Assembly (NCBI GenBank): GCA_016278505.1
Contig: JADQBQ010000005.1
Coordinates: forward strand, 100,771 to 151,216
DNA length: 50,446 nt
Source of the DNA: Clostridiales bacterium
GTDB lineage: Bacteria; Bacillota; Desulfotomaculia; Desulfotomaculales; VENG01
Direction of reading: 5' to 3'
Shown here: positions 26,300-36,789 of the stretch, in pieces
Layout of the letters: every line of letters starts with the position of its first letter
Numbering within the stretch: position 1 is the stretch's first letter
The notes under the pieces: model-generated
Database searches by the model: none
What the model was told of the DNA's origin: nothing
What the model saw: the letters and a program-made list of their open reading frames with translations, nothing else
Position numbers and translations under genes: made by a program

Positions 26300-26557
26300 T
26301 TAAGTATTGTTTTCTTCCTTTAACCAGCTAACTATTTCTTTCCTGGAAGGAAGCCTTCCGCCTGCCTTTAGCTTTTTATTAATCACAAAACCTGGGATTG
26401 CGCCAGGGCCGAAAGATTCAACAATCTTTTTATCGGTAACCTTTTCTACCCCGGCAGCAATCTGCAATTCTGACAATATATTTATGGTAGTCTGTACCAA
26501 GTTGGTACAGTTTGGACATCCTTCCACACCCAGTATCTTAATATTAATATGCAGCAC
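26300..26557 (-). CDS. Small thioredoxin-fold protein (CPNC)
   Basis: An 85-residue glutaredoxin/thioredoxin-like protein: ILGVEGCPNCTNLVQTTINI with a CxxC active site and GAIPGFVINKKL with the cis-proline loop. It belongs to the small redox-active disulfide (thioredoxin_3) group. It overlaps the stop of the metal ATPase gene, so it is translationally coupled to it and may reduce or shuttle thiols for metal handling. The start is unclear. The GTG at 26557 lies inside the AGGAGGTG ribosome-binding site. An ATT at 26546-26548 is correctly spaced (6 nt) and would give the family-typical N-terminus (M)NIKILG. Confidence 0.8.
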   Translation of the reverse strand: MLHINIKILGVEGCPNCTNLVQTTINILSELQIAAGVEKVTDKKIVESFGPGAIPGFVINKKLKAGGRLPSRKEIVSWLKEENNT

Positions 26558-28403
26558 CTCCTACCCTTTCTTTCTGCTCACCTTTGTAAATCAAAAGCCT
26601 CATGGAATTTAATATTACTATCATTACACTTGCTTCGTGTGCCAACATACCGGAAGCCAGGAAAACATATTTGCTTAAAACTCCAGCCAGTAATGCTGCT
26701 ACCACCAAAACAGCGAAAGTAATGTTTTGCTTTATATTGCGCAAAGCTGACTTGCTTAGTCCAATGACATAGGGCACCATGCTCAGCTTATCACCCATTA
26801 GTACAATGTCTGCAACCTCTATAGCTACGTCTGTTCCTGCCGCTCCCATAGCAATTCCTATATTTGCGGTTGCCAGGGCAGGGGCATCATTAATACCGTC
26901 TCCCACCATAGCCACTGTATTTCCCTGCTCAATATATCCATTTATGGCTTCCACTTTCTCTTCGGGCAACAGCCCGGCTTGAAACTCATCTATACCCAGT
27001 TCTTTAGCAATGGAAGATGCAGTACGCTGGTTGTCACCCGTTAGCATCACTACTTTATCTATACCCATATTTTTTAGCTGGTTAATTACAGCTGAAGCAC
27101 TCTCTCTAACCTGGTCCGCTATGGATATTACACCGACAATACTTTTATTTTGAGCCACTAGTATGCCGGTATATCCTTTCTCTTCCCGGCCCTGCAGATA
27201 TTCTTCCACTTCAGCCGGAATGGTTATTCTTTCTTCGTGCATCATGCCCCTGTTGCCGACAAGCACTTTACTGCCGGTCACTATTCCGCTTGCACCCTTA
27301 CCGGGAAATACATTAAAATCATCCGCGGCCTGCGCTTGGCTACCCGCCGCCTCGGTTATCGCCTTGGCCAGGTGATGTTCGGAATTAGTTTCTATGCTTG
27401 CTGCCATCTCGATTACATTGGTTTCGGTTCCCTGAAAAGCTTTAACATTTTTCACCGCAGGCCTGCCGTAAGTTAAAGTACCGGTTTTATCAAAAGCAAC
27501 GACATTTATCTTACCTGCTTTTTCCAGGTGCTCACCGCCTTTTACCAGAGCACCCTTTCTTGCCCCATTACCAATGGCGGAGACAATGGATACCGGCGTG
27601 GCAATAACCAGTGCACCGGGACAGGCTATCACCAGCAGGGTGAGGGCCATTTTAGTGTCCCGCGTAAAAAGATAAGTTAAAAGGGAAAGAATAATTATAC
27701 CCGGTGTATAATATCTGGAAAACTTGGTCAAAAACCGCTCGGTAGGAGACTTGCTTTCCTGAGCCTCTTCCACCAGGTTAAGTATCTTAGCAAAAGTAGT
27801 ATCGTCCCCTGCTTTTTCTGTCCTTATTTCCAGGTAGCCGGCATCATTTATAGTGCCGCTGTATACTTTTTCTCCCGGCCCTTTTCCCACCGGCATAGGC
27901 TCACCGGTCACATGAGATTCATTGATGGTACCCCTGCCCTTGATAATGCTGCCGTCCACGGGTATTTTACCGCCCGGTTTAACCGCCACTATGTCGCCGG
28001 GATTGACTTCTTCCGCCGGGACTTCCCGCTCACCGGATTCACTTTTTATTACCGCCTTCAAAGGTGCAAGCTCCACCAGGCTTTGTATAGCATGCCTGGT
28101 TTTATCCATAGTTTTGGCTTCTAAGAAAGACCCCAGGGCAAAGAGAATGGTAACGGCTGCCGCTTCCCAGTATTCTCCAATTAATATAGCCCCCACGGCA
28201 GCTATTGTCACCAGTGCCTCAATGCCCACTACCTTAAATCTTAAAGACGTCAATGCATTCTTCGCAATGGGGTATCCGGCTACGACAGCAGCAGTTACCA
28301 TCAATACCTGGTTGGCCATGGTAAATTCATATTTGCCCAGTATCCAACCGGCAATTGCAATAGACCCACTTGTCAGCAGTACGAAGGTCTTGTTGTTTAA
28401 CAT
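26544..28403 (-). CDS. Heavy-metal P1B-type ATPase with CPG motif
   Basis: A P-type metal exporter of about 619 residues. Recognisable motifs are TGEPMPV (actuator), the phosphorylation site DKTGTLT, MLTGDN and MVGDGINDAPAL. The membrane metal site in the helix before the P domain reads ACPGALVIATP, that is CPG rather than the usual CPC, CPH or SPC. The nucleotide-domain HP dipeptide is replaced (SEHHLAKAI). No N-terminal HMA domain is fused; instead a separate HMA protein is encoded 16 bp upstream. The start at 28403 is supported by AGGTG 6 nt upstream. It is probably an efflux pump for Zn/Cd/Co-like ions, but the altered site makes the metal uncertain. Confidence 0.9.
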   Translation of the reverse strand: MLNNKTFVLLTSGSIAIAGWILGKYEFTMANQVLMVTAAVVAGYPIAKNALTSLRFKVVGIEALVTIAAVGAILIGEYWEAAAVTILFALGSFLEAKTMDKTRHAIQSLVELAPLKAVIKSESGEREVPAEEVNPGDIVAVKPGGKIPVDGSIIKGRGTINESHVTGEPMPVGKGPGEKVYSGTINDAGYLEIRTEKAGDDTTFAKILNLVEEAQESKSPTERFLTKFSRYYTPGIIILSLLTYLFTRDTKMALTLLVIACPGALVIATPVSIVSAIGNGARKGALVKGGEHLEKAGKINVVAFDKTGTLTYGRPAVKNVKAFQGTETNVIEMAASIETNSEHHLAKAITEAAGSQAQAADDFNVFPGKGASGIVTGSKVLVGNRGMMHEERITIPAEVEEYLQGREEKGYTGILVAQNKSIVGVISIADQVRESASAVINQLKNMGIDKVVMLTGDNQRTASSIAKELGIDEFQAGLLPEEKVEAINGYIEQGNTVAMVGDGINDAPALATANIGIAMGAAGTDVAIEVADIVLMGDKLSMVPYVIGLSKSALRNIKQNITFAVLVVAALLAGVLSKYVFLASGMLAHEASVMIVILNSMRLLIYKGEQKERVGGAAY

Positions 28404-28419
28404 GTGGATCACCTGCCTT

Positions 28420-28632
28420 TTATAACTGTTTTGCCTTATACCCCAGCTTTTTTATAGCCCCAATTATTCCTTCAGGAGAAATTTCCTCTTCCAAGTAAGT
28501 AATCTTTGCTTTCCCGGTATTAAAAAACACATCCGCTTTTTCTATACCTTTTATCTTGTTCAACATGTCCCCAATCTTTTCTGTACAAACTGGGCAAGAC
28601 AACCCCTCTACCCGCAATACTAATTTTTTCAT
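28420..28632 (-). CDS. HMA-domain metallochaperone (CopZ-like)
   Basis: A 70-residue heavy-metal-associated domain: MKKLVLRVEGLSCPVCTEKI with the metal-binding GLSCPVC motif (CxxC), then VFFNTGKAKITYLEEEISPE and the terminal IKKLGYKAK. It has the beta-alpha-beta-beta-alpha-beta length of single-domain chaperones. It lies 16 bp upstream of the metal ATPase, suggesting that it delivers metal to it or serves as its detached N-terminal domain. A ribosome-binding site AGAGGAGTG precedes the ATG. No dedicated regulator is adjacent. Confidence 0.9.
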   Translation of the reverse strand: MKKLVLRVEGLSCPVCTEKIGDMLNKIKGIEKADVFFNTGKAKITYLEEEISPEGIIGAIKKLGYKAKQL

Positions 28633-28923: not shown

Positions 28924-31116
28924 GTGTCTGTTGTTTCCACCCTGGAAGATAAATGTAAGGCCTGTTACTCTTGTCTCCGTGAGTGTCCGGTGAAGGCGAT
29001 TAAAGTGGAAGTCGGACAGTCAAGGGTCGTGCCGGAGCGATGCATAAACTGCGGCAGCTGTATTAAGGCGTGCTCGCAAAACGCTAAAAGTGTTCTTTCC
29101 TTTGTTCCTCAGGTCCAGGAATATTTGAGGGAAGCTAAAACCAAAACCATAGCTCTCCTGGCACCCTCCTTCCCGGCATTCATCTACCCACTTGAACCCA
29201 AGGATTTTTTTGACCTTCTTATGGAGGTAGGCTTCCATGAAGTTCATGAGTTAACTATCGGAATAGAACTGGTAATGCCCAAGTACAGGGAATACCTTCA
29301 GGGAAGGAATGAGCCGGCCATCGGATCGCACTGTGCGGCAGTGGTGAATTTAATCGAAAAACATTTTCCGGACCTAATCCAATACCTGATCCCCGTTGAT
29401 TCTGCCCTGATGGCTACGGCAAAACTGCTCCGCCATAGGAATAAAGACAGCAGGCTAGTCTTTATCGGCCCTTGCATAGCCAAAAAGGAGGAGTTTCTTA
29501 ATTCTCCTGAGGGTATTTTGGACGCTGTCATAACGTTTAAGGAGTTAAAAGAATTGTGCCTAAGCAAGGGATGTCTAGAAAAAATGGATAATTGTGCCCC
29601 CTTGGAGGGAAAGAGTTATTTGCCTTCCATATTTCCACTTAACAGGGGTTTAATCAAAAATATCGACCCCCAGGGGAAAATCTATAAGGACGACGAGGTG
29701 GCTGTGGTTGAAGGGAAAGAAGACTGTGTTCAGTTTCTGCAAAAGCTGCAGGAAGGGGCCATCAAGCCCCGTTTTATAGATATGCTGTTTTGTAAAGGAT
29801 GTATTGACGGGCCTGAGATCGCCACCGAATTGGACATTTTCAGCCGGCAGTACCAGGTTTACCGGCACTCCCGCACCAGGCAAAAAGAAAGACTTGGCCG
29901 CATACCCAAACTCAATTTGGATCGTTCCTTCTCAAGTAAGTATCAACCCTTGCTATCACCAAGCGAACAGGAAATAGCCCAGATTTTAACATATACAGAT
30001 AAGCACCAACCTGAGGATGAATTAAATTGCGGCGCCTGTGGTTACAATTCATGCCGCGATAAGGCTGTCGCTGTCTGCCAGGGACTGGCCGAGGTGGAAA
30101 TGTGCCTACCTTATTTGCTGGAACAATCCCGCGGCGAGTTAGAATACTATAAGAAGCATTGGAAAAATGGCGACATTGAGGACCTTATTGTGGGTGACAG
30201 CCCCTGTATCTGTGATTTGAGGCAAATGGCCATCAAGGTCGGGCGAAACGACGCTTCGCTTTTAATCCTGGGGGAAAGTGGGGTAGGCAAAGAGGTCTTT
30301 GCCCGTACCGTTCACATGCTAAGCCGGCGTTGCCATGATCCCTTTATCGCTATCAACTGCGCTGCCCTGCCGGAACAACTGCTGGAGTCCGAACTTTTCG
30401 GCTATGAAGAAGGGGCTTTCACCGGTGCCCGCAAGGGCGGTAAGCCGGGTAAATTTGAGCAGGCGCGGGGAGGCTCCCTCCTGTTGGATGAAATTGCCGA
30501 AATGCCCCTTTTTATGCAGGCAAAACTCCTGCGTGTAATTCAAGAAAGGGAGTTCGAACGGGTGGGCGGTACCAAGACCATCAAACTGGATGCCAGGATA
30601 ATGGTGGCCACCAATAAAGACATAAAAAAGCTTACCCAGCAAGGACTGTTCAGAAGCGACTTGTTTTATCGGCTTAATGTTATATCCATTACAATTCCCA
30701 CATTACGCCACAGGAGCGAGGATATTCCCCTCCTGGCAGACCACTTCCTGCAAGAATTGGCTGCAGATTGCAGGAGGTATCCAAAAATCATTTCCAAGCC
30801 GGCCTTCACTCTTCTTTTGGCCTACGATTGGCCCGGCAATATCAGGGAGCTTAAAAACGTCATTGAACGGGCGGTATATCTAGCCGACGGAAAAGTTATT
30901 CAGGTGCAGCACCTTCCTGAGCACATGCGGAAATTAAACGTCAAACAAGAGGGAACCCGGCTAACTCCGCTAAAGGTGGCGGTACGGGATCTGGAAAAAG
31001 AACTTATTTTAAAAGCCCTGAAAAAGACTGAAAACAACAAGGTTGACGCGGCCAAGATACTTGGTGTGCCCAGGGCAACCTTTTACCTGAAGTTAAAGGA
31101 ATATGAAATCAATTAA
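28924..31116 (+). CDS. Sigma-54 activator with ferredoxin and [Fe]-hydrogenase-like sensor domains
   Basis: A 730-residue fusion. Residues 11-50 hold two CxxCxxCxxxC clusters (CKACYSCLREC, CINCGSCIKAC). Residues about 70-400 form a Fe-hydrogenase large-subunit-like domain with Cys137 (GSHC), Cys184 (GPCIAKKEE) and Cys290/293 (FCKGCIDGP). The last motif is CxxC, not the CxGGC of the true H-cluster. A four-Cys Fe-S domain (NCGACGYNSC, about 368-394) follows. Then comes a sigma-54 AAA+ domain with GESGVGKE (about 450) and GAFTGA (about 497), and a Fis-type HTH (DAAKILGVPRATFYLKLKEY). GTG at 28924 follows GGAAGGA; an earlier TTG is possible. It lies directly upstream of the hydrogenase operon and probably senses redox state or H2 to activate it. 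Loss of H-cluster features argues against catalysis. Confidence 0.92.
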   Translation: MSVVSTLEDKCKACYSCLRECPVKAIKVEVGQSRVVPERCINCGSCIKACSQNAKSVLSFVPQVQEYLREAKTKTIALLAPSFPAFIYPLEPKDFFDLLMEVGFHEVHELTIGIELVMPKYREYLQGRNEPAIGSHCAAVVNLIEKHFPDLIQYLIPVDSALMATAKLLRHRNKDSRLVFIGPCIAKKEEFLNSPEGILDAVITFKELKELCLSKGCLEKMDNCAPLEGKSYLPSIFPLNRGLIKNIDPQGKIYKDDEVAVVEGKEDCVQFLQKLQEGAIKPRFIDMLFCKGCIDGPEIATELDIFSRQYQVYRHSRTRQKERLGRIPKLNLDRSFSSKYQPLLSPSEQEIAQILTYTDKHQPEDELNCGACGYNSCRDKAVAVCQGLAEVEMCLPYLLEQSRGELEYYKKHWKNGDIEDLIVGDSPCICDLRQMAIKVGRNDASLLILGESGVGKEVFARTVHMLSRRCHDPFIAINCAALPEQLLESELFGYEEGAFTGARKGGKPGKFEQARGGSLLLDEIAEMPLFMQAKLLRVIQEREFERVGGTKTIKLDARIMVATNKDIKKLTQQGLFRSDLFYRLNVISITIPTLRHRSEDIPLLADHFLQELAADCRRYPKIISKPAFTLLLAYDWPGNIRELKNVIERAVYLADGKVIQVQHLPEHMRKLNVKQEGTRLTPLKVAVRDLEKELILKALKKTENNKVDAAKILGVPRATFYLKLKEYEIN

Positions 31117-31145
31117 CTCAATTAACTCATATTCCGGTTTTGCTC

Positions 31146-31160
31146 GTCTAAGATTTAGAC
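31146..31160. promoter_or_regulatory. Candidate upstream activator site
   Basis: GTCTAA-GAT-TTAGAC is a perfect 6-bp inverted repeat about 105 bp upstream of the -24 element, a usual distance for enhancer-binding proteins. The neighbouring gene encodes such a protein, with a Fis-type HTH. Confidence 0.45.
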
Positions 31161-31228
31161 ATGTCCAGAGTTTGGAATGACCTAAAAAAGAGGTATACAA
31201 TCAATGTGAATTCTTTGTGTCCAAAAAA

Positions 31229-31246
31229 TAGATCAAATAGGATCTA
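31229..31246. promoter_or_regulatory. Second inverted repeat upstream of the -24/-12 promoter
   Basis: TAGATC-AAATAG-GATCTA has perfect 6-bp arms and ends 18 bp before the TGG of the -24 element. It resembles 31146-31160 in the TAGA/TCTA core and may be a second activator or a competing site. Confidence 0.35.
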
Positions 31247-31276
31247 AGGCCGGCCTTCTAGGCTGGTCTTTTTTTT
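31246..31276 (+). terminator. Intrinsic terminator of the activator gene
   Basis: AAGGCCGGCC and GGCTGGTCTT pair over 10 bp (two G-T pairs) with loop TTCTA and continue into a T run. It lies 130 bp after the activator stop. Its T run is also the spacer of the adjacent -24/-12 element. Confidence 0.75.
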
Positions 31277-31279
31277 GCA
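31264..31279 (+). promoter_or_regulatory. Sigma-54 (-24/-12) promoter for the hydrogenase operon
   Basis: TGGTCT-TTTTT-TTGCA has the invariant GG and GC separated by exactly 10 nt and matches TGGCAC-N5-TTGCW at most other positions. It is preceded by a gene for a sigma-54 activator and followed, 109 bp on, by the NuoE-like start. The T run belongs to the overlapping terminator, so part of the match could be chance. Confidence 0.6.
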
Positions 31280-31301
31280 TGAATATTTAGAATATTCATG
31301 C
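31277..31301. promoter_or_regulatory. 25-bp palindrome at the predicted transcription start
   Basis: GCATGAATATT and AATATTCATGC are perfect 11-bp arms around TAG. It begins at the -12 GC and spans the expected start site, which is where a repressor operator would sit. In RNA it would form a 5' hairpin. Confidence 0.5.
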
Positions 31302-31387
31302 ATTCGCCTTTTAAACAGCAACCCAGAAGGGAGGTCCATTACTGGAAAGGACGTTTTATGAAGCAGCAAGGAAAGGAGGGCTAAGAA

Positions 31388-31924
31388 ATGAAAGAAAATG
31401 ATTGTAAGTGCGAGCATCTTTGGGCAGAGTTCAATCAAACCTTGGAAAAGAATAGTGGGAACCGCAGTGCACTAATTACTGTATTACACAAAGCCCAGGA
31501 ATTATTTGGGTATATACCCCGTGAAGTGCAAATTAGGATCGCCGAAGAATTAGAAATTCCACTGGCCGATGTATATGGCGTTGTTACCTTTTATAATTTC
31601 TTTTCATTAAAGCCCCAGGGGAAATATAAAATATCAGTTTGTAAAGGTACTTCGTGCTATGTCCGGGGAGCATCAGGAGTACTGGAGCGTTTCAGCAAAA
31701 CGTTGGGAGTAGGGCCCGGGGATTCTACTGATGACGGGCAATTCAGCATTGAGGTTGTACGCTGCCTGGGAGCCTGCGGTCTTTCTCCTGTGATGACCGT
31801 AAATAAAGACGTTTACGCACTGGTAAAGCAGGAAAGCATTCCTGAAATACTAGACAAATATGCAGCTGAAGAAGTCCAAGAAAGTGCAACTGATACTTTG
31901 CAAAGGGATCAACGTGAAACTTAA
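31388..31924 (+). CDS. NuoE-like [2Fe-2S] subunit of NAD(P)-linked [FeFe] hydrogenase
   Basis: A 178-residue subunit of the HydC/HndA type. The N-terminal helical part (ALITVLHKAQELFGYIPREV) is followed by a thioredoxin-like fold with four cluster cysteines in CKGTSC and CLGACG. It would pass electrons between the flavin subunit and the hydrogenase in the cytoplasm. The ATG at 31388 is preceded by AAAGGAGG. It is the first gene of a three-gene operon, 14 bp before the NuoF-like fusion. A C-terminal tail of about 20 polar residues is longer than usual. Confidence 0.93.
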   Translation: MKENDCKCEHLWAEFNQTLEKNSGNRSALITVLHKAQELFGYIPREVQIRIAEELEIPLADVYGVVTFYNFFSLKPQGKYKISVCKGTSCYVRGASGVLERFSKTLGVGPGDSTDDGQFSIEVVRCLGACGLSPVMTVNKDVYALVKQESIPEILDKYAAEEVQESATDTLQRDQRET

Positions 31925-31938
31925 GGGGGTGGCAGTGA

Positions 31939-34900
31939 ATGAAAAAAATTAAAACGCCGGCAGAGTTGCATGCATGGAAGTTAGAGGCTGAGAAGACGCT
32001 TCAACCTCGGGAAAGCGGCACCAAGCAAGTCATGATATGCTCTGACACCAACTGCAAAGTGTCCAAGGGAGAAGATCTTTATAACAGTCTGGTTGATGAA
32101 ATCAAGAACGCCGGCCTGGAGGAAAAGGTATCGGTTTCTCAAACCGGATGCTTCGGTTTATGCCGTATTGGTCCCAATATGATGGTTTATCCGGAGCGGG
32201 TGTATTACTCTCAGATTTTACCTGAAGAAGTACCAAGATTGGTAAAGGAACACTTTGGACAAGGACGCATTGTGGAAAACCTGCTTTACCGCAACCCGGG
32301 TAGTCAAACTCCCGTACGCAGATATGAGGATATTGATTTCTTCAAATATCAAAACCGGATTGTCCTCCGTAACTGCGGGTTTATTAACCCTGAGCGGCTT
32401 GACGACTATGTTGCACAGGATGGTTACGCCGCCCTTTGTAAAGTAGTCAATGATATGTCCGCACCTGAAGTAATTGACGAGATTAAAACATCGGGCCTGC
32501 GAGGTCGCGGCGGTGCCGGTTTCTTAACCGGCATGAAATGGGAATTTGCTGCTAAGGCCGCCGGCGGGGAGAAATATATTATATGCAATGCTGACGAGGG
32601 CGACCCGGGTGCTTTTATGGACCGCAGCGTTCTCGAAGGGGATCCTCACAGCGTACTGGAAGGGATGGCCATTGCAGGTTATGCCATTGGGGCTAATCAA
32701 GGATACATTTATATACGGGCAGAATATCCAAGCGCAGTACAAAGACTGGAACTAGCCATCGAACAGGCCAGGGAATCAGGTTTCCTGGGTGCAAACATTT
32801 TTGATACAGATTTTTCCTTTGATATTGATATTCGGTTAGGCGCAGGTGCCTTTGTTTGCGGTGAGGAAACGGCCTTAATTGCTTCAATTGAGGGCCGCCG
32901 CGGAGAACCCAGGCCCAAACCGCCATTCCCGGCTAACGCCGGTCTTTGGGGCAAACCAACCATTATCAATAACGTGGAAACTCTAGCCAATATAGCAACA
33001 GTTATTCGCAACGGAGCTAACTGGTTTGCCGGTATAGGTACTGAAAAAAGTAAAGGAAGCAAGGTATTCGCATTGGCCGGCAAAATTAACAATAATGGCT
33101 TGGTAGAGGTTCCTATGGGTACTTCACTGGGAGATATTATCTTTGACATTGGCGGTGGAATACCGGGCGGTAAAAAGTTTAAAGCAGCTCAAACGGGCGG
33201 GCCCAGTGGCGGATGCATACCCACCCAGCATTTAAATACCCCCATGGATTATGAATCATTAACTGCCCTGGGTACCATCATGGGTTCCGGTGGACTTGTG
33301 GTCATGGATGAAGACACCTGTATGGTGGACCTAGCCAAATTCTTTATAGAGTTCGTGCAAGAGGAATCCTGCGGCCAGTGTTCCATGTGCCGCGTTGGAA
33401 CCAAGCGTATGTTTGAAATATTGGATCGTATTACCAAGGGACAGGGTCGTGAAGGGGACATTGATTTACTGCTTGAATTAGGGGAGGGAATCAAAGACGC
33501 ATCGTTGTGCGGGCTTGGCCAGACCGCACCTAACCCGGTTTTAAACACCATACGCTATTACCGCGATGAATACGAAAAGCATATAAAAGACAAATACTGT
33601 CCGGCATCAGTATGCGCGTCACTGTTTAATTCCCCCTGCCAGAATACATGTCCCGCCAATGTGGATGTACCCATCTACATCGATTTAATCAGGCAGGGAA
33701 AATTTACCGAGGCCTACCGCACCATAATTGAGGAAAACCCCTTCCCTGTTATTTGCGGCAGAACCTGCAACCACCCGTGTGAAAGCAGCTGCAACAGAGG
33801 TAAGTTGGATGAGCCGGTAGCCATAAGGGATTTAAAACGTTTTGCAGCTGATTATGTATTGGAACACGGAGGTTTGGAAATCCCGGCTGTTGAGGAGCAT
33901 AAGGAAGAGAAAGTTGCCATAATCGGTTCCGGCCCGGCAGGGCTTACTGCAGCTTATTATTTAAGACGCCAAGGGTATCAAGTCACTGTTTTTGAATCTT
34001 TACCCACTGCAGGCGGAATGATGGCAGCAGGCATACCGGAATATCGACTGCCGAAAAAAATGCTGCAGGCGGAAATAAACACCATTAAAGAAATGGGTGT
34101 GGAAATAATATTAAACACCGCCATCGGGCGGGACATTACGGTTAGTGATCTAAAAGAGCAGGGATTTAAAGCCATATTTATTGCCGTAGGCGTTCATAAA
34201 GAACGACAGTTAAGAATTCCGGGGGAAGACTTGGACGGAGTGGTTTCAGGAGTTAATTTCCTCAAGGATGTTAACCTGGATACCCCTGCTGACTTATCGG
34301 GTAAGGTTGTAGCTATTATTGGTGGTGGGAATGTTGCCATTGATGCAGCCAGATCTGCTTTGAGAATGGGCGCTTCAGAGGTCAAGATTGTATACCGGCG
34401 CCGCAAGCAGGATATGCCGGCACTTCCAGAAGAAGTTCGTGAGGCTCAAAATGAAGGTATTAAATTTTTAGAGCTGGCATCTCCAGTGGAATTTGTTAGT
34501 GATAACTCCCGGGTCTCCAGTGTACTTTGTAATAAAATGCGTCCCGGTAATTTTGACAAAAGTGGTAGAAGGAAACCGGAACCGGAGGAAGGTTCACTAT
34601 TTAGTGTAGATGCTGATTTAGTTATTAAAGCAATTGGCCGGTCAGTTGATCTCTCATTTATCCCTGCAGAAATGGGATTGGGGATTGGAAAAACCGGAAA
34701 TGTAAAAGCGAAGCAAGATACATTTGCCACAAATATACCCGGCATTTATGCCGGTGGAGATTGTGTAAGCGGGTCCAACACACTTGTTGAAGCCATAGCT
34801 GCCGGTAAAAAAGCAGCGACTTCCATTGATAAGTTCCTGGGTGGTGACGGAAAAGTTACACTTGAACAAACAGTGGAAAGGAAACTCTCCGGCCCGCTAA

Positions 34901-35043
34901 TGGAAGAAAAGAAGGCCAGGATAGAAGCACCGCTGTTACCTGTTGAGCAGAGGATTATCGGTTTTGAAGAAGTAGAAACAGGCTATGCTGAGGAAACAGC
35001 AGTAGCAGAAGCATGCCGCTGTTTACGCTGTGATGTAAGGTAA
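31939..35043 (+). CDS. NuoF-like hydrogenase subunit fused to GltD/NfnB-like NAD(P)H oxidoreductase
   Basis: A 1034-residue fusion. The N-terminus is a thioredoxin-like [2Fe-2S] domain (CSDTNC, CFGLC). The NuoF core follows, with RGRGGAGFLTG (about 189, FMN/NAD), NADEGDPGAFMDR and GAFVCGEETALI, then an SLBB region and the [4Fe-4S] motif ESCGQCSMCRVG (about 476). Where HndC-type subunits end in a bacterial ferredoxin, this one has a GltD-type double cluster (CQNTCPANVDVP, CGRTCNHPCESSC). An FAD/NAD(P) oxidoreductase completes it, with IGSGPAGLTAAYYL (about 662), GGMMAAGIPEYRLP and IGGGNVAIDAARSA (about 792). GGGGGTGG precedes the ATG. The two pyridine-nucleotide sites suggest coupling of NADH and NADPH pools to hydrogenase and possibly electron bifurcation. 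Confidence 0.93.
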   Translation: MKKIKTPAELHAWKLEAEKTLQPRESGTKQVMICSDTNCKVSKGEDLYNSLVDEIKNAGLEEKVSVSQTGCFGLCRIGPNMMVYPERVYYSQILPEEVPRLVKEHFGQGRIVENLLYRNPGSQTPVRRYEDIDFFKYQNRIVLRNCGFINPERLDDYVAQDGYAALCKVVNDMSAPEVIDEIKTSGLRGRGGAGFLTGMKWEFAAKAAGGEKYIICNADEGDPGAFMDRSVLEGDPHSVLEGMAIAGYAIGANQGYIYIRAEYPSAVQRLELAIEQARESGFLGANIFDTDFSFDIDIRLGAGAFVCGEETALIASIEGRRGEPRPKPPFPANAGLWGKPTIINNVETLANIATVIRNGANWFAGIGTEKSKGSKVFALAGKINNNGLVEVPMGTSLGDIIFDIGGGIPGGKKFKAAQTGGPSGGCIPTQHLNTPMDYESLTALGTIMGSGGLVVMDEDTCMVDLAKFFIEFVQEESCGQCSMCRVGTKRMFEILDRITKGQGREGDIDLLLELGEGIKDASLCGLGQTAPNPVLNTIRYYRDEYEKHIKDKYCPASVCASLFNSPCQNTCPANVDVPIYIDLIRQGKFTEAYRTIIEENPFPVICGRTCNHPCESSCNRGKLDEPVAIRDLKRFAADYVLEHGGLEIPAVEEHKEEKVAIIGSGPAGLTAAYYLRRQGYQVTVFESLPTAGGMMAAGIPEYRLPKKMLQAEINTIKEMGVEIILNTAIGRDITVSDLKEQGFKAIFIAVGVHKERQLRIPGEDLDGVVSGVNFLKDVNLDTPADLSGKVVAIIGGGNVAIDAARSALRMGASEVKIVYRRRKQDMPALPEEVREAQNEGIKFLELASPVEFVSDNSRVSSVLCNKMRPGNFDKSGRRKPEPEEGSLFSVDADLVIKAIGRSVDLSFIPAEMGLGIGKTGNVKAKQDTFATNIPGIYAGGDCVSGSNTLVEAIAAGKKAATSIDKFLGGDGKVTLEQTVERKLSGPLMEEKKARIEAPLLPVEQRIIGFEEVETGYAEETAVAEACRCLRCDVR

Positions 35044-35061
35044 CTTGAAAGGAGGGATAAA

Positions 35062-36789
35062 ATGCCAATGATTTCTTTAACTATAGATAATAAAAAGGTG
35101 GAGGTTGAACAGGGCACATCCATCCTGGAGGCAGCAAGGGAGGCTGGCACGGGAATTCCCAGCCTGTGTTACCTTAAGGATATAAATGTAGTTGGGGTAT
35201 GCCGGGTTTGTGTTGTGGAAGTGAAAGGGGCTCGTTCCCTGGTGGCATCATGTGTTGCCCCTGCAGCTGAGGGAATGGAGGTTTTAACCAATACAAACCG
35301 TGTTCGCAATGCGCGCAGACTGGCAGTGGAATTAATTCTCTCGGACCACCCCATGGAGTGCCCCACCTGTATTAGAAATCTTAATTGTGAATTACAAACG
35401 CTGGCCGAAGAATTAGGGATTCGGGACGTGCGATTTGAGGGTGAAAGGACAAAGCATACAGCCGACAATTCATCTCCCTCCATTATCCGTGACCCGCAGA
35501 AATGCATCCTTTGCCGGCGCTGTGTAAGCGTTTGTGAGCATGTTCAATCTGTAAAGGCAATAGCTCCCCAGAATCGTGGATTTGATGCTGTGGTCTCCCC
35601 TGCCTTTGAAGCCGGACTGGCAGAAACAGAATGTGTAAACTGCGGGCAGTGCTCACTGGTTTGCCCTACAGGGGCTATTTACGAAAAGGATGACACAACG
35701 AGAGTATGGGATGCCCTCGCTGATCCTAATATACACGTGGTAGTACAGACTGCACCTGCAGTACGTGTCGCCCTGGGAGAGATATTTGGCATGGAGCCGG
35801 GCAGCGTAGTTACCACGCAAATGGTAGGTGCGTTAAAACAGCTGGGGTTCAATAAGGTCTTTGACACCGACTTCACGGCGGATTTAACCATTATGGAAGA
35901 AGGAAGTGAATTAATCGAAAGGATAAAGAGTGGCGGTAAGCTGCCGCTGATTACCTCCTGCAGCCCCGGCTGGATTAAATTTATAGAACACTTTTATCCA
36001 GACTTATTGCCGCACTTATCCACCTGCAAGTCACCACAGCAAATGTTCGGCGCACTGGCTAAAACTTACTATACCGGTAAAGCAGGTGTGGATCCGGCCA
36101 ATGTATTTTCTGTATCGATCATGCCCTGCACCGCCAAGAAATTTGAGTCACAGCGGCCTGAAATGAACAGCAGCGGATACCAAGACGTGGACGTTGTTCT
36201 GACCACTAGGGAACTGGGGCGTATGCTCAAGCTGGCAGGGATTGATCTTTCTTCCTGTCCGGAAGAAGAATATGATGACCCCATGGGAATCTCCACAGGG
36301 GCAGCAGTAATATTCGGCGCCACAGGGGGCGTAATGGAGGCGGCCCTGCGTACCGCGTATGAGTTAATCACAGGGGAGACTCTCCCATCAGTGGATTTTA
36401 AAACAGTAAGGGGTATGGAAGGAGTAAAAGAAGCTTCCGTACAAGTAGGCAGCCTCAACGTGAATGTAGCTGTAGCACACGGGTTAGGAAACGCAAGAAA
36501 GCTCCTGGATGCTATCAAAGCGGGAGATGCTGATTATCATTTTATCGAAATAATGTGTTGTCCCGGCGGCTGTATCGGTGGAGGTGGTCAACCCATACCC
36601 ACTGATCTTGGGATCAGAGAAAAACGGATCGGCGGAATATATACCGCAGACGAAAAAATGGTTCTAAGAAAATCCCATGAAAATCCCGCCATACAGCAGA
36701 TATATAAAGAGTTTCTCGAAGAGCCCCTGGGACATAGGTCCCATGAACTGCTGCACACACAATATGTAGCCCGAGGCAAATATAAATAG
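35062..36789 (+). CDS. hydA: [FeFe] hydrogenase catalytic subunit (HydA/HndD type)
   Basis: A 575-residue group A hydrogenase. It has an N-terminal [2Fe-2S] domain (C36 onward, VCRVC), a His-ligated cluster (HPMECPTCIRNLNC), two [4Fe-4S] clusters (CILCRRCVSVC, CVNCGQCSLVC) and the H-cluster domain: L1 TSCSPGW (about 298), L2 MPCTAKKFE (about 354) and L3 EIMCCPGGCIGGGG (about 497). L1 reads CS rather than the textbook CC, a variant I associate with multimeric NAD(P)-linked enzymes. The C-terminal small-subunit-like tail ends ELLHTQYVARG. AAAGGAGG precedes the ATG, 18 bp after the fusion subunit. The operon ends at the terminator at 36838. Confidence 0.96.
   Translation: MPMISLTIDNKKVEVEQGTSILEAAREAGTGIPSLCYLKDINVVGVCRVCVVEVKGARSLVASCVAPAAEGMEVLTNTNRVRNARRLAVELILSDHPMECPTCIRNLNCELQTLAEELGIRDVRFEGERTKHTADNSSPSIIRDPQKCILCRRCVSVCEHVQSVKAIAPQNRGFDAVVSPAFEAGLAETECVNCGQCSLVCPTGAIYEKDDTTRVWDALADPNIHVVVQTAPAVRVALGEIFGMEPGSVVTTQMVGALKQLGFNKVFDTDFTADLTIMEEGSELIERIKSGGKLPLITSCSPGWIKFIEHFYPDLLPHLSTCKSPQQMFGALAKTYYTGKAGVDPANVFSVSIMPCTAKKFESQRPEMNSSGYQDVDVVLTTRELGRMLKLAGIDLSSCPEEEYDDPMGISTGAAVIFGATGGVMEAALRTAYELITGETLPSVDFKTVRGMEGVKEASVQVGSLNVNVAVAHGLGNARKLLDAIKAGDADYHFIEIMCCPGGCIGGGGQPIPTDLGIREKRIGGIYTADEKMVLRKSHENPAIQQIYKEFLEEPLGHRSHELLHTQYVARGKYK

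Follow-up and report, generated by a model that had tools for sequence, protein, structure and literature searches.

Between a sigma-54 activator gene and the [FeFe] hydrogenase genes that follow it on the same strand lies a gap of 271 nt, from the activator stop codon (31116) to the ATG of a NuoE-like gene (31388), and within it a terminator hairpin and a -24/-12 promoter motif fall on each other. The question is whether the end of one transcript and the start of the next are here set by the same bases. The DNA analysed (the window) is a stretch of 50,446 nt from an anaerobic Clostridiales bacterium. Our preferred reading, to which we give a probability of about 0.8, is a composite terminator/sigma-54 promoter placed between an Fe-S sensing activator and its most likely target, the [FeFe] hydrogenase operon. 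The features of the region are as follows.

28924..31116, + strand: gene of the activator, a sigma-54 enhancer-binding protein (EBP), assigned from Pfam, orthologue alignments and sequence
31145..31161, + strand: putative activator site 1, CGTCTAAGATTTAGACA, a 17-bp dyad at -119 from the T of the -24 box, placed by its offset and a block conserved with the related loci G036 and G068
31162..31178, + strand: putative activator site 2, TGTCCAGAGTTTGGAAT, at -102, degenerate, placed by position and the conserved block
31218..31234, + strand: putative promoter-proximal activator site 3, TGTCCAAAAAATAGATC, at -46, the commonest offset in relatives
31246..31270, + strand: predicted intrinsic-terminator hairpin of the activator gene, AAGGCCGGCCTTCTAGGCTGGTCTT, from a hairpin scan, folding energy and conservation in three species
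31264..31279, + strand: predicted -24/-12 promoter, TGGTCTTTTTTTTGCA, from the sequence, a sigma-54 matrix and comparison with relatives
31269..31276, + strand: T tract of the terminator, which is also the promoter spacer, read from the sequence
31276..31302, + strand: perfect 12-bp inverted repeat, TGCATGAATATT-TAG-AATATTCATGCA, covering the -12 box and the predicted start
31388..31924, + strand: NuoE-like subunit, first gene of the operon (ATG 31388), Pfam 2Fe-2S_thioredx
31939..35043, + strand: NuoF-like subunit fused to an NAD(P)-binding GltD-like module, from domain matches
35062..36789, + strand: catalytic subunit of an NADH-dependent, group A6 [FeFe] hydrogenase, NCBIfam NF040763 (929 bits against a cut-off of 765)

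The hairpin begins 130 nt past the activator stop codon and is the top terminator-like site within 7 kb, with 11 pairs (six of them G-C), a loop of 3, a T tail and a folding energy of -16.3 kcal/mol (z = -4.8 versus shuffles). It shares with ordinary intrinsic terminators the GC-rich hairpin and the T tract, but unlike them its 3' arm and tract double as promoter boxes and spacer, so that a single 34-base segment (31246-31279, AAGGCCGGCCTTCTAGGCTGGTCTTTTTTTTGCA) holds hairpin, T tract and -24/-12 promoter together. The TGG of the -24 box (31264-31266) lies in the 3' arm, paired with the CCG of the 5' arm, and TTGCA (31275-31279) closes the T tract. The first-pass annotation had read a TGG-N8-TTGCA element here with GG and GC exactly 10 nt apart and the T run as its spacer, and in this it was correct in coordinates and spacing alike: the match at 31264-31279 is exact, 10 nt separate GG (31265-31266) from GC (31277-31278), and the T tract 31269-31276 fills the spacer. 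Its picture of a terminator running into the TGG needs amending, as the TGG is itself inside the 3' arm; the overlap is thus larger than had been described. Placing the start 11-12 nt downstream of the GC predicts initiation of the hydrogenase transcript near 31290.

A motif of this kind could be fortuitous. On such a reading the element does no more than terminate transcription: its TGG and TTGC would have come about by chance in a terminator with a long T run, and the operon would depend on a different promoter or on read-through. The numbers give this reading some footing. With a sigma-54 scoring matrix that is approximate, being built from general knowledge of the consensus, scores of at least 9.5 bits occur at 22 of 100,862 window positions, which puts the chance expectation for a single strand of the 271-nt gap at about 0.06; the window site itself scores 9.5 bits, the lowest among the three fused relatives, and although its TGG and TTGCA conform, TCT follows the TGG where the consensus has CAC or CAT. 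Among 113 genomes from the order, the pattern TGGN3T7GCW turns up in 71 and its mis-spaced control TGGN4T7GCW in 66, a similar frequency, so the bare motif is not clearly beyond chance and by itself proves nothing. Motif statistics as sole proof were accordingly rejected. The evidence against a mere terminator comes from elsewhere. G036 and G068 carry a site at the orthologous place (140-147 nt past the stop codon in the three genomes) with better -24 boxes and exact spacing, most orthologous gaps contain a sigma-54 site, and a search for a sigma-A-like promoter from the terminator to the start codon of the hydrogenase operon gave none, the sole + strand candidate in the gap (31172-31201) lying upstream of the terminator. 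We therefore regard this explanation as improbable.

Conservation was examined with the activator gene as anchor rather than the NuoE gene, because NuoE homologues in the order reach no more than 59% identity. Seventy activator-gene relatives with flanking sequence made up, with the window, a set of 71 loci, which the close relative G068 joined later. A -24/-12 site of at least 11 bits is present on the coding strand of the activator-operon gap in 48 of the 71 loci and on the opposite strand in 2; at 14 bits or more the figures are 36 and 0. Loci of the same family are not independent in these counts, and the site recurs across many families. Loss of the GG/GC in relatives, named in the first-pass annotation as a sign that the match is chance, was looked for in the same comparison and is not what the relatives show: the two dinucleotides and their 10-nt spacing are invariant in G036 and G068, and 48 of the 71 gaps hold a -24/-12 site.

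The closest view of the element comes from G036 and G068, whose activators are 74-75% identical overall to that of the window. Their sites (AATGCCGGTCTTTTAGACTGGCATTTCTTTTGCG and AATGCCAGTCTTTCAGGCTGGCATTATTTTTGCG, respectively) lie 141 and 140 nt past the stop codon, compared with 147 nt in the window, and both read TGGCAT, giving better -24 boxes. The fused layout is identical in all three, an ungapped alignment preserving 11 of 11 hairpin pairs in each, with two pairs changed on both sides and two on one side, while TGG, TTGC and the GG-to-GC spacing are invariant. This covariation is supportive, not decisive, since three sequences do not exceed column shuffles (112/500). The fused form is found in these three genomes, which span two families; G033, a 64% orthologue, is without it and its best sigma-54 site is weak (9.2 bits). 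Hydrogenase operons lie downstream of 32 of 54 full-length activator relatives (25 [NiFe], 7 [FeFe]/Nuo-type), but their class differs even among the fused loci: the window has an [FeFe] operon (31117-36789 with its control region), G036 and G068 an Hdr/Mvh-like [NiFe] operon (L070, L233). A change of hydrogenase class has therefore taken place downstream of an activator and control region that remained linked.

The proximity of terminator and promoter is a wider property of these loci. Of the 47 with a site, 24 have a terminator hairpin whose end falls between -14 and +8 relative to the -24 T, against 4.8 expected for random hairpin placement and a maximum of 12 in 2000 trials. In the usual layout the T tract extends as far as the -24 box and no further (examples are L003, L105, L115-L117 and L126); the terminator of the window's group sits about 13 nt further along and interlocks with the promoter. 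The fusion is an extreme form of the abutting arrangement, a point absent from the first-pass annotation, as are the activator-site dyads and the palindrome at the predicted start. That both elements are real and needed, and that the bases came to be shared by chance and are tolerated rather than selected, is an explanation we take seriously and place a little short of even odds. It concerns why the bases are shared, and is compatible with the composite element itself. Chance overlap would come easily, because a TGGCA, T-rich DNA and a TTGC need only an upstream TGCCA to make a terminator, and the commoner layout is indeed abutment without overlap. The gaps, moreover, are not especially short. 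Set against this, three genomes from two families keep the fusion, and the changes in their hairpins preserve both functions.

The fusion also arises beside unrelated EBP genes, which again weighs against simple tolerance. A search of 398 Bacillota genomes gives 13 occurrences of the pattern TGGCATTTTTTTTGCW and none of the version with one extra T, a control that requires a longer T run and would be rarer anyway. Eighteen T-spacer sites from the order and phylum searches were examined, and 11 of them sit 100-160 nt downstream of a same-strand EBP gene, nine with a hairpin that has the TGG in its 3' arm; examples are GCCAACCCTTT...AAAGGGTTGGCATTTTTTTTGCT in L339 and GTGCCGGAAGAGTATATCTTCTGGCATTTTTTTTGCA in L237, the latter preceding genes for a ferredoxin and an oxidoreductase-like protein. 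A fused hairpin of -10 kcal/mol or below is present in 12 of 14 T-spacer elements (the three hydrogenase-linked ones included), compared with 2.3 expected when the upstream sequence is shuffled. Apart from the three hydrogenase-linked loci, the EBP genes concerned are not orthologous to the activator of the window, which makes more than one origin of the layout probable. Even so the fusion is uncommon: when EBP genes of the order were taken without regard to the motif (22 sites were listed, and the five picked by motif left out), only 1 of 17 strong downstream sigma-54 sites has a fused hairpin, and a weak one; this rarity fits tolerated overlap. What makes the match in the window convincing is its orthologous position, the conservation of the hairpin and the convergent cases, all of which, like the anatomy and the spacing, are read directly from the sequence. 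The earlier proposal that terminator and promoter share bases is thus borne out by comparison, in G036 and G068 as well as downstream of other EBP genes, and we take the composite to be a real, recurrent element.

Two further observations were made in these searches. At position 1500 of L338, from a 6.6-Mb Bacillota genome, TGGCATTTTTTTTGCT is fused to a very stable hairpin of -32.5 kcal/mol, and no EBP motif was found upstream. In L123-L126, L129, L132, L135 and L138 a sigma-54 promoter behind the activator is followed by a conserved stretch with an apparent ORF of about 65 codons (ELNEAYARLDERYNCLRSNW...), a search of Rfam for an RNA family behind the promoters of this group giving no match, and then by a gene that by eye is peptidase-U32-like.

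The activator has the domains Fer4, Fe_hyd_lg_C, FeS, Sigma54_activat and HTH_8 (Pfam), with GAFTGA present in Sigma54_activat, and RpoN is encoded once in the genome (PF04552, single match, E 5.7e-63). Its ORF was listed from TTG 28852, but the alternative GTG 28924 is preceded by a good ribosome site (GGAAAGGAAGG) and orthologue alignments start at or beside the residue it encodes, making GTG 28924 the likelier start. The sensor part resembles [FeFe] hydrogenase, with GSHC in place of the TSC motif at the first cluster motif and the last shortened to CKGC, and its Fe-S cysteines (eight Fer4, four hydrogenase-domain, four FeS) are kept in 54 of 54 relatives. The replaced motifs and conserved cysteines together suggest an Fe-S sensor, not an enzyme. 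A search of viral contigs for relatives of the activator found none. The divergent genes on the - strand at 26544-28632, judged by eye, are candidates for a copper-type P-ATPase and a small metal-binding protein.

Sites at which such an activator might bind were sought as TGT-N11-ACA dyads in the 150 nt that precede the -24 box. Of 47 related loci, 23 carry them where 1.8 would be expected, and their offsets are fixed: -46/-47 is the commonest, and others lie at about -108 or form tandem pairs, for example -129/-146. The exact dyad was not met in the window, and its degenerate dyads were placed by position and alignment. Sites 1 and 2 stand in tandem with a 17-bp period, an arrangement shared with Desulfosporosinus loci and L115-L117, and site 1 has C for the first T of the dyad; site 3 (TGTCCAAAAAATAGATC) matches TGTCTAAAAAATAGACA of L115-L117 at 14 of 17 positions. 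The tandem dyads are probably activator sites, and the adjoining hydrogenase operon is most likely the activator's target.

From this arrangement we infer termination of the activator transcript, sigma-54 dependence of the next, a link between activator and operon and an insulating benefit. Sigma-A polymerase transcribing the activator gene would stop in the T run (31269-31276), and RNA polymerase with sigma-54 would bind the same bases as DNA, with the hairpin 3' arm as -24 box, the T run as spacer and the -12 box beyond, and wait there as a closed complex until activator bound to the dyads at 31145-31178 and 31218-31234 opened it, giving a start near 31290. On known biology, a terminator set on the promoter would keep the activator transcript out of the hydrogenase genes, which would be wholly dependent on the activated sigma-54 promoter because there would be no read-through, and elongating polymerase would rarely sweep off the waiting closed complex. 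Overlap beyond abutment would add mutual exclusion between a terminating and a waiting polymerase, and might also allow core polymerase to be handed over to sigma-54. That the repeated Bacillota fusion is under selection as one device, coupling the end of activator transcription to the state of the promoter via mutual exclusion or hand-over, we consider rather unlikely.

Hand-over in particular, in which the core that releases the activator transcript stays on the promoter DNA and is captured by sigma-54, so that activator transcription itself loads the promoter, seems to us highly improbable. It has a precedent in the work of Kang et al. 2020 (PMC6978380), in which RNA polymerase usually stays on the DNA after intrinsic termination, diffuses and can restart nearby, restart being favoured when a sigma factor is supplied, and the window resembles that recycling in having a termination point near a reusable promoter, indeed with the release point on the promoter itself. 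The precedent, however, is for sigma-70 and separate elements, whereas the window has a single set of bases for terminator and promoter, and a different sigma factor; the abutting layout, besides, would offer equal proximity without any overlap.

Several components of the composite terminator/promoter are already known: adjacency of EBP gene and operon, clostridial sigma-54 promoters, and EBPs with this sensor architecture (PMC6615313, PMC7438776). The Clostridiales sigma-54 regulons of Nie et al. 2019 (PMC6615313) have the promoter consensus TTGGCATNNNNNTTGCT and include EBPs with Fer4, Fe_hyd_lg_C and FeS sensor domains, and they share with the window the EBP gene adjoining its target operon, the upstream sites and, in part, the promoter consensus. 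Table 1 of that work, unlike the window, has no hydrogenase operon in its 39 regulons, and its main text is without the word 'terminator'. In the text of PMC7438776 the clostridial consensus is TGGCA-N6-[A,T]TGCT, 23 of 30 promoters adjoin an EBP gene, and mapped promoters include the non-consensus TGGTATG; a T-run spacer or fused terminator, as in the window, is not described in that text. A literature search for any sigma-54 promoter that overlaps a terminator found none, most subscription journals lying outside the search.

If its function is confirmed, the element would be a natural dual-purpose device of 34 bp that ends one transcript and starts the next under a different sigma factor. 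It would also predict a hydrogenase regulon for a widespread family of redox-sensing activators, for which none was found in the main text of PMC6615313. The element provides a setting in which to study the effect of a terminating polymerase on a sigma-54 promoter, which it might clear, block or load, and a search rule for others of its kind: TGGCA in a hairpin 3' arm, a T-run spacer and TTGC.

The promoter may receive a further input. The inverted repeat at 31276-31302 is possibly an operator, and its core occurs in perfect form nowhere else in the genome. The centre of the repeat, AATATTTAGAATATT, matches the CodY box AATTTTCWGAAAATT at 12 of 15 positions, and the genome encodes a CodY gene. 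Of 44 loci, 9 (closely related ones, the window among them) have a CodY-like box shortly after the promoter, where 0.5 would be expected; in Desulfosporosinus, G036 and G068 such boxes stand just downstream of the -12 box. It is plausible that the hydrogenase promoter has a second, repressing input.
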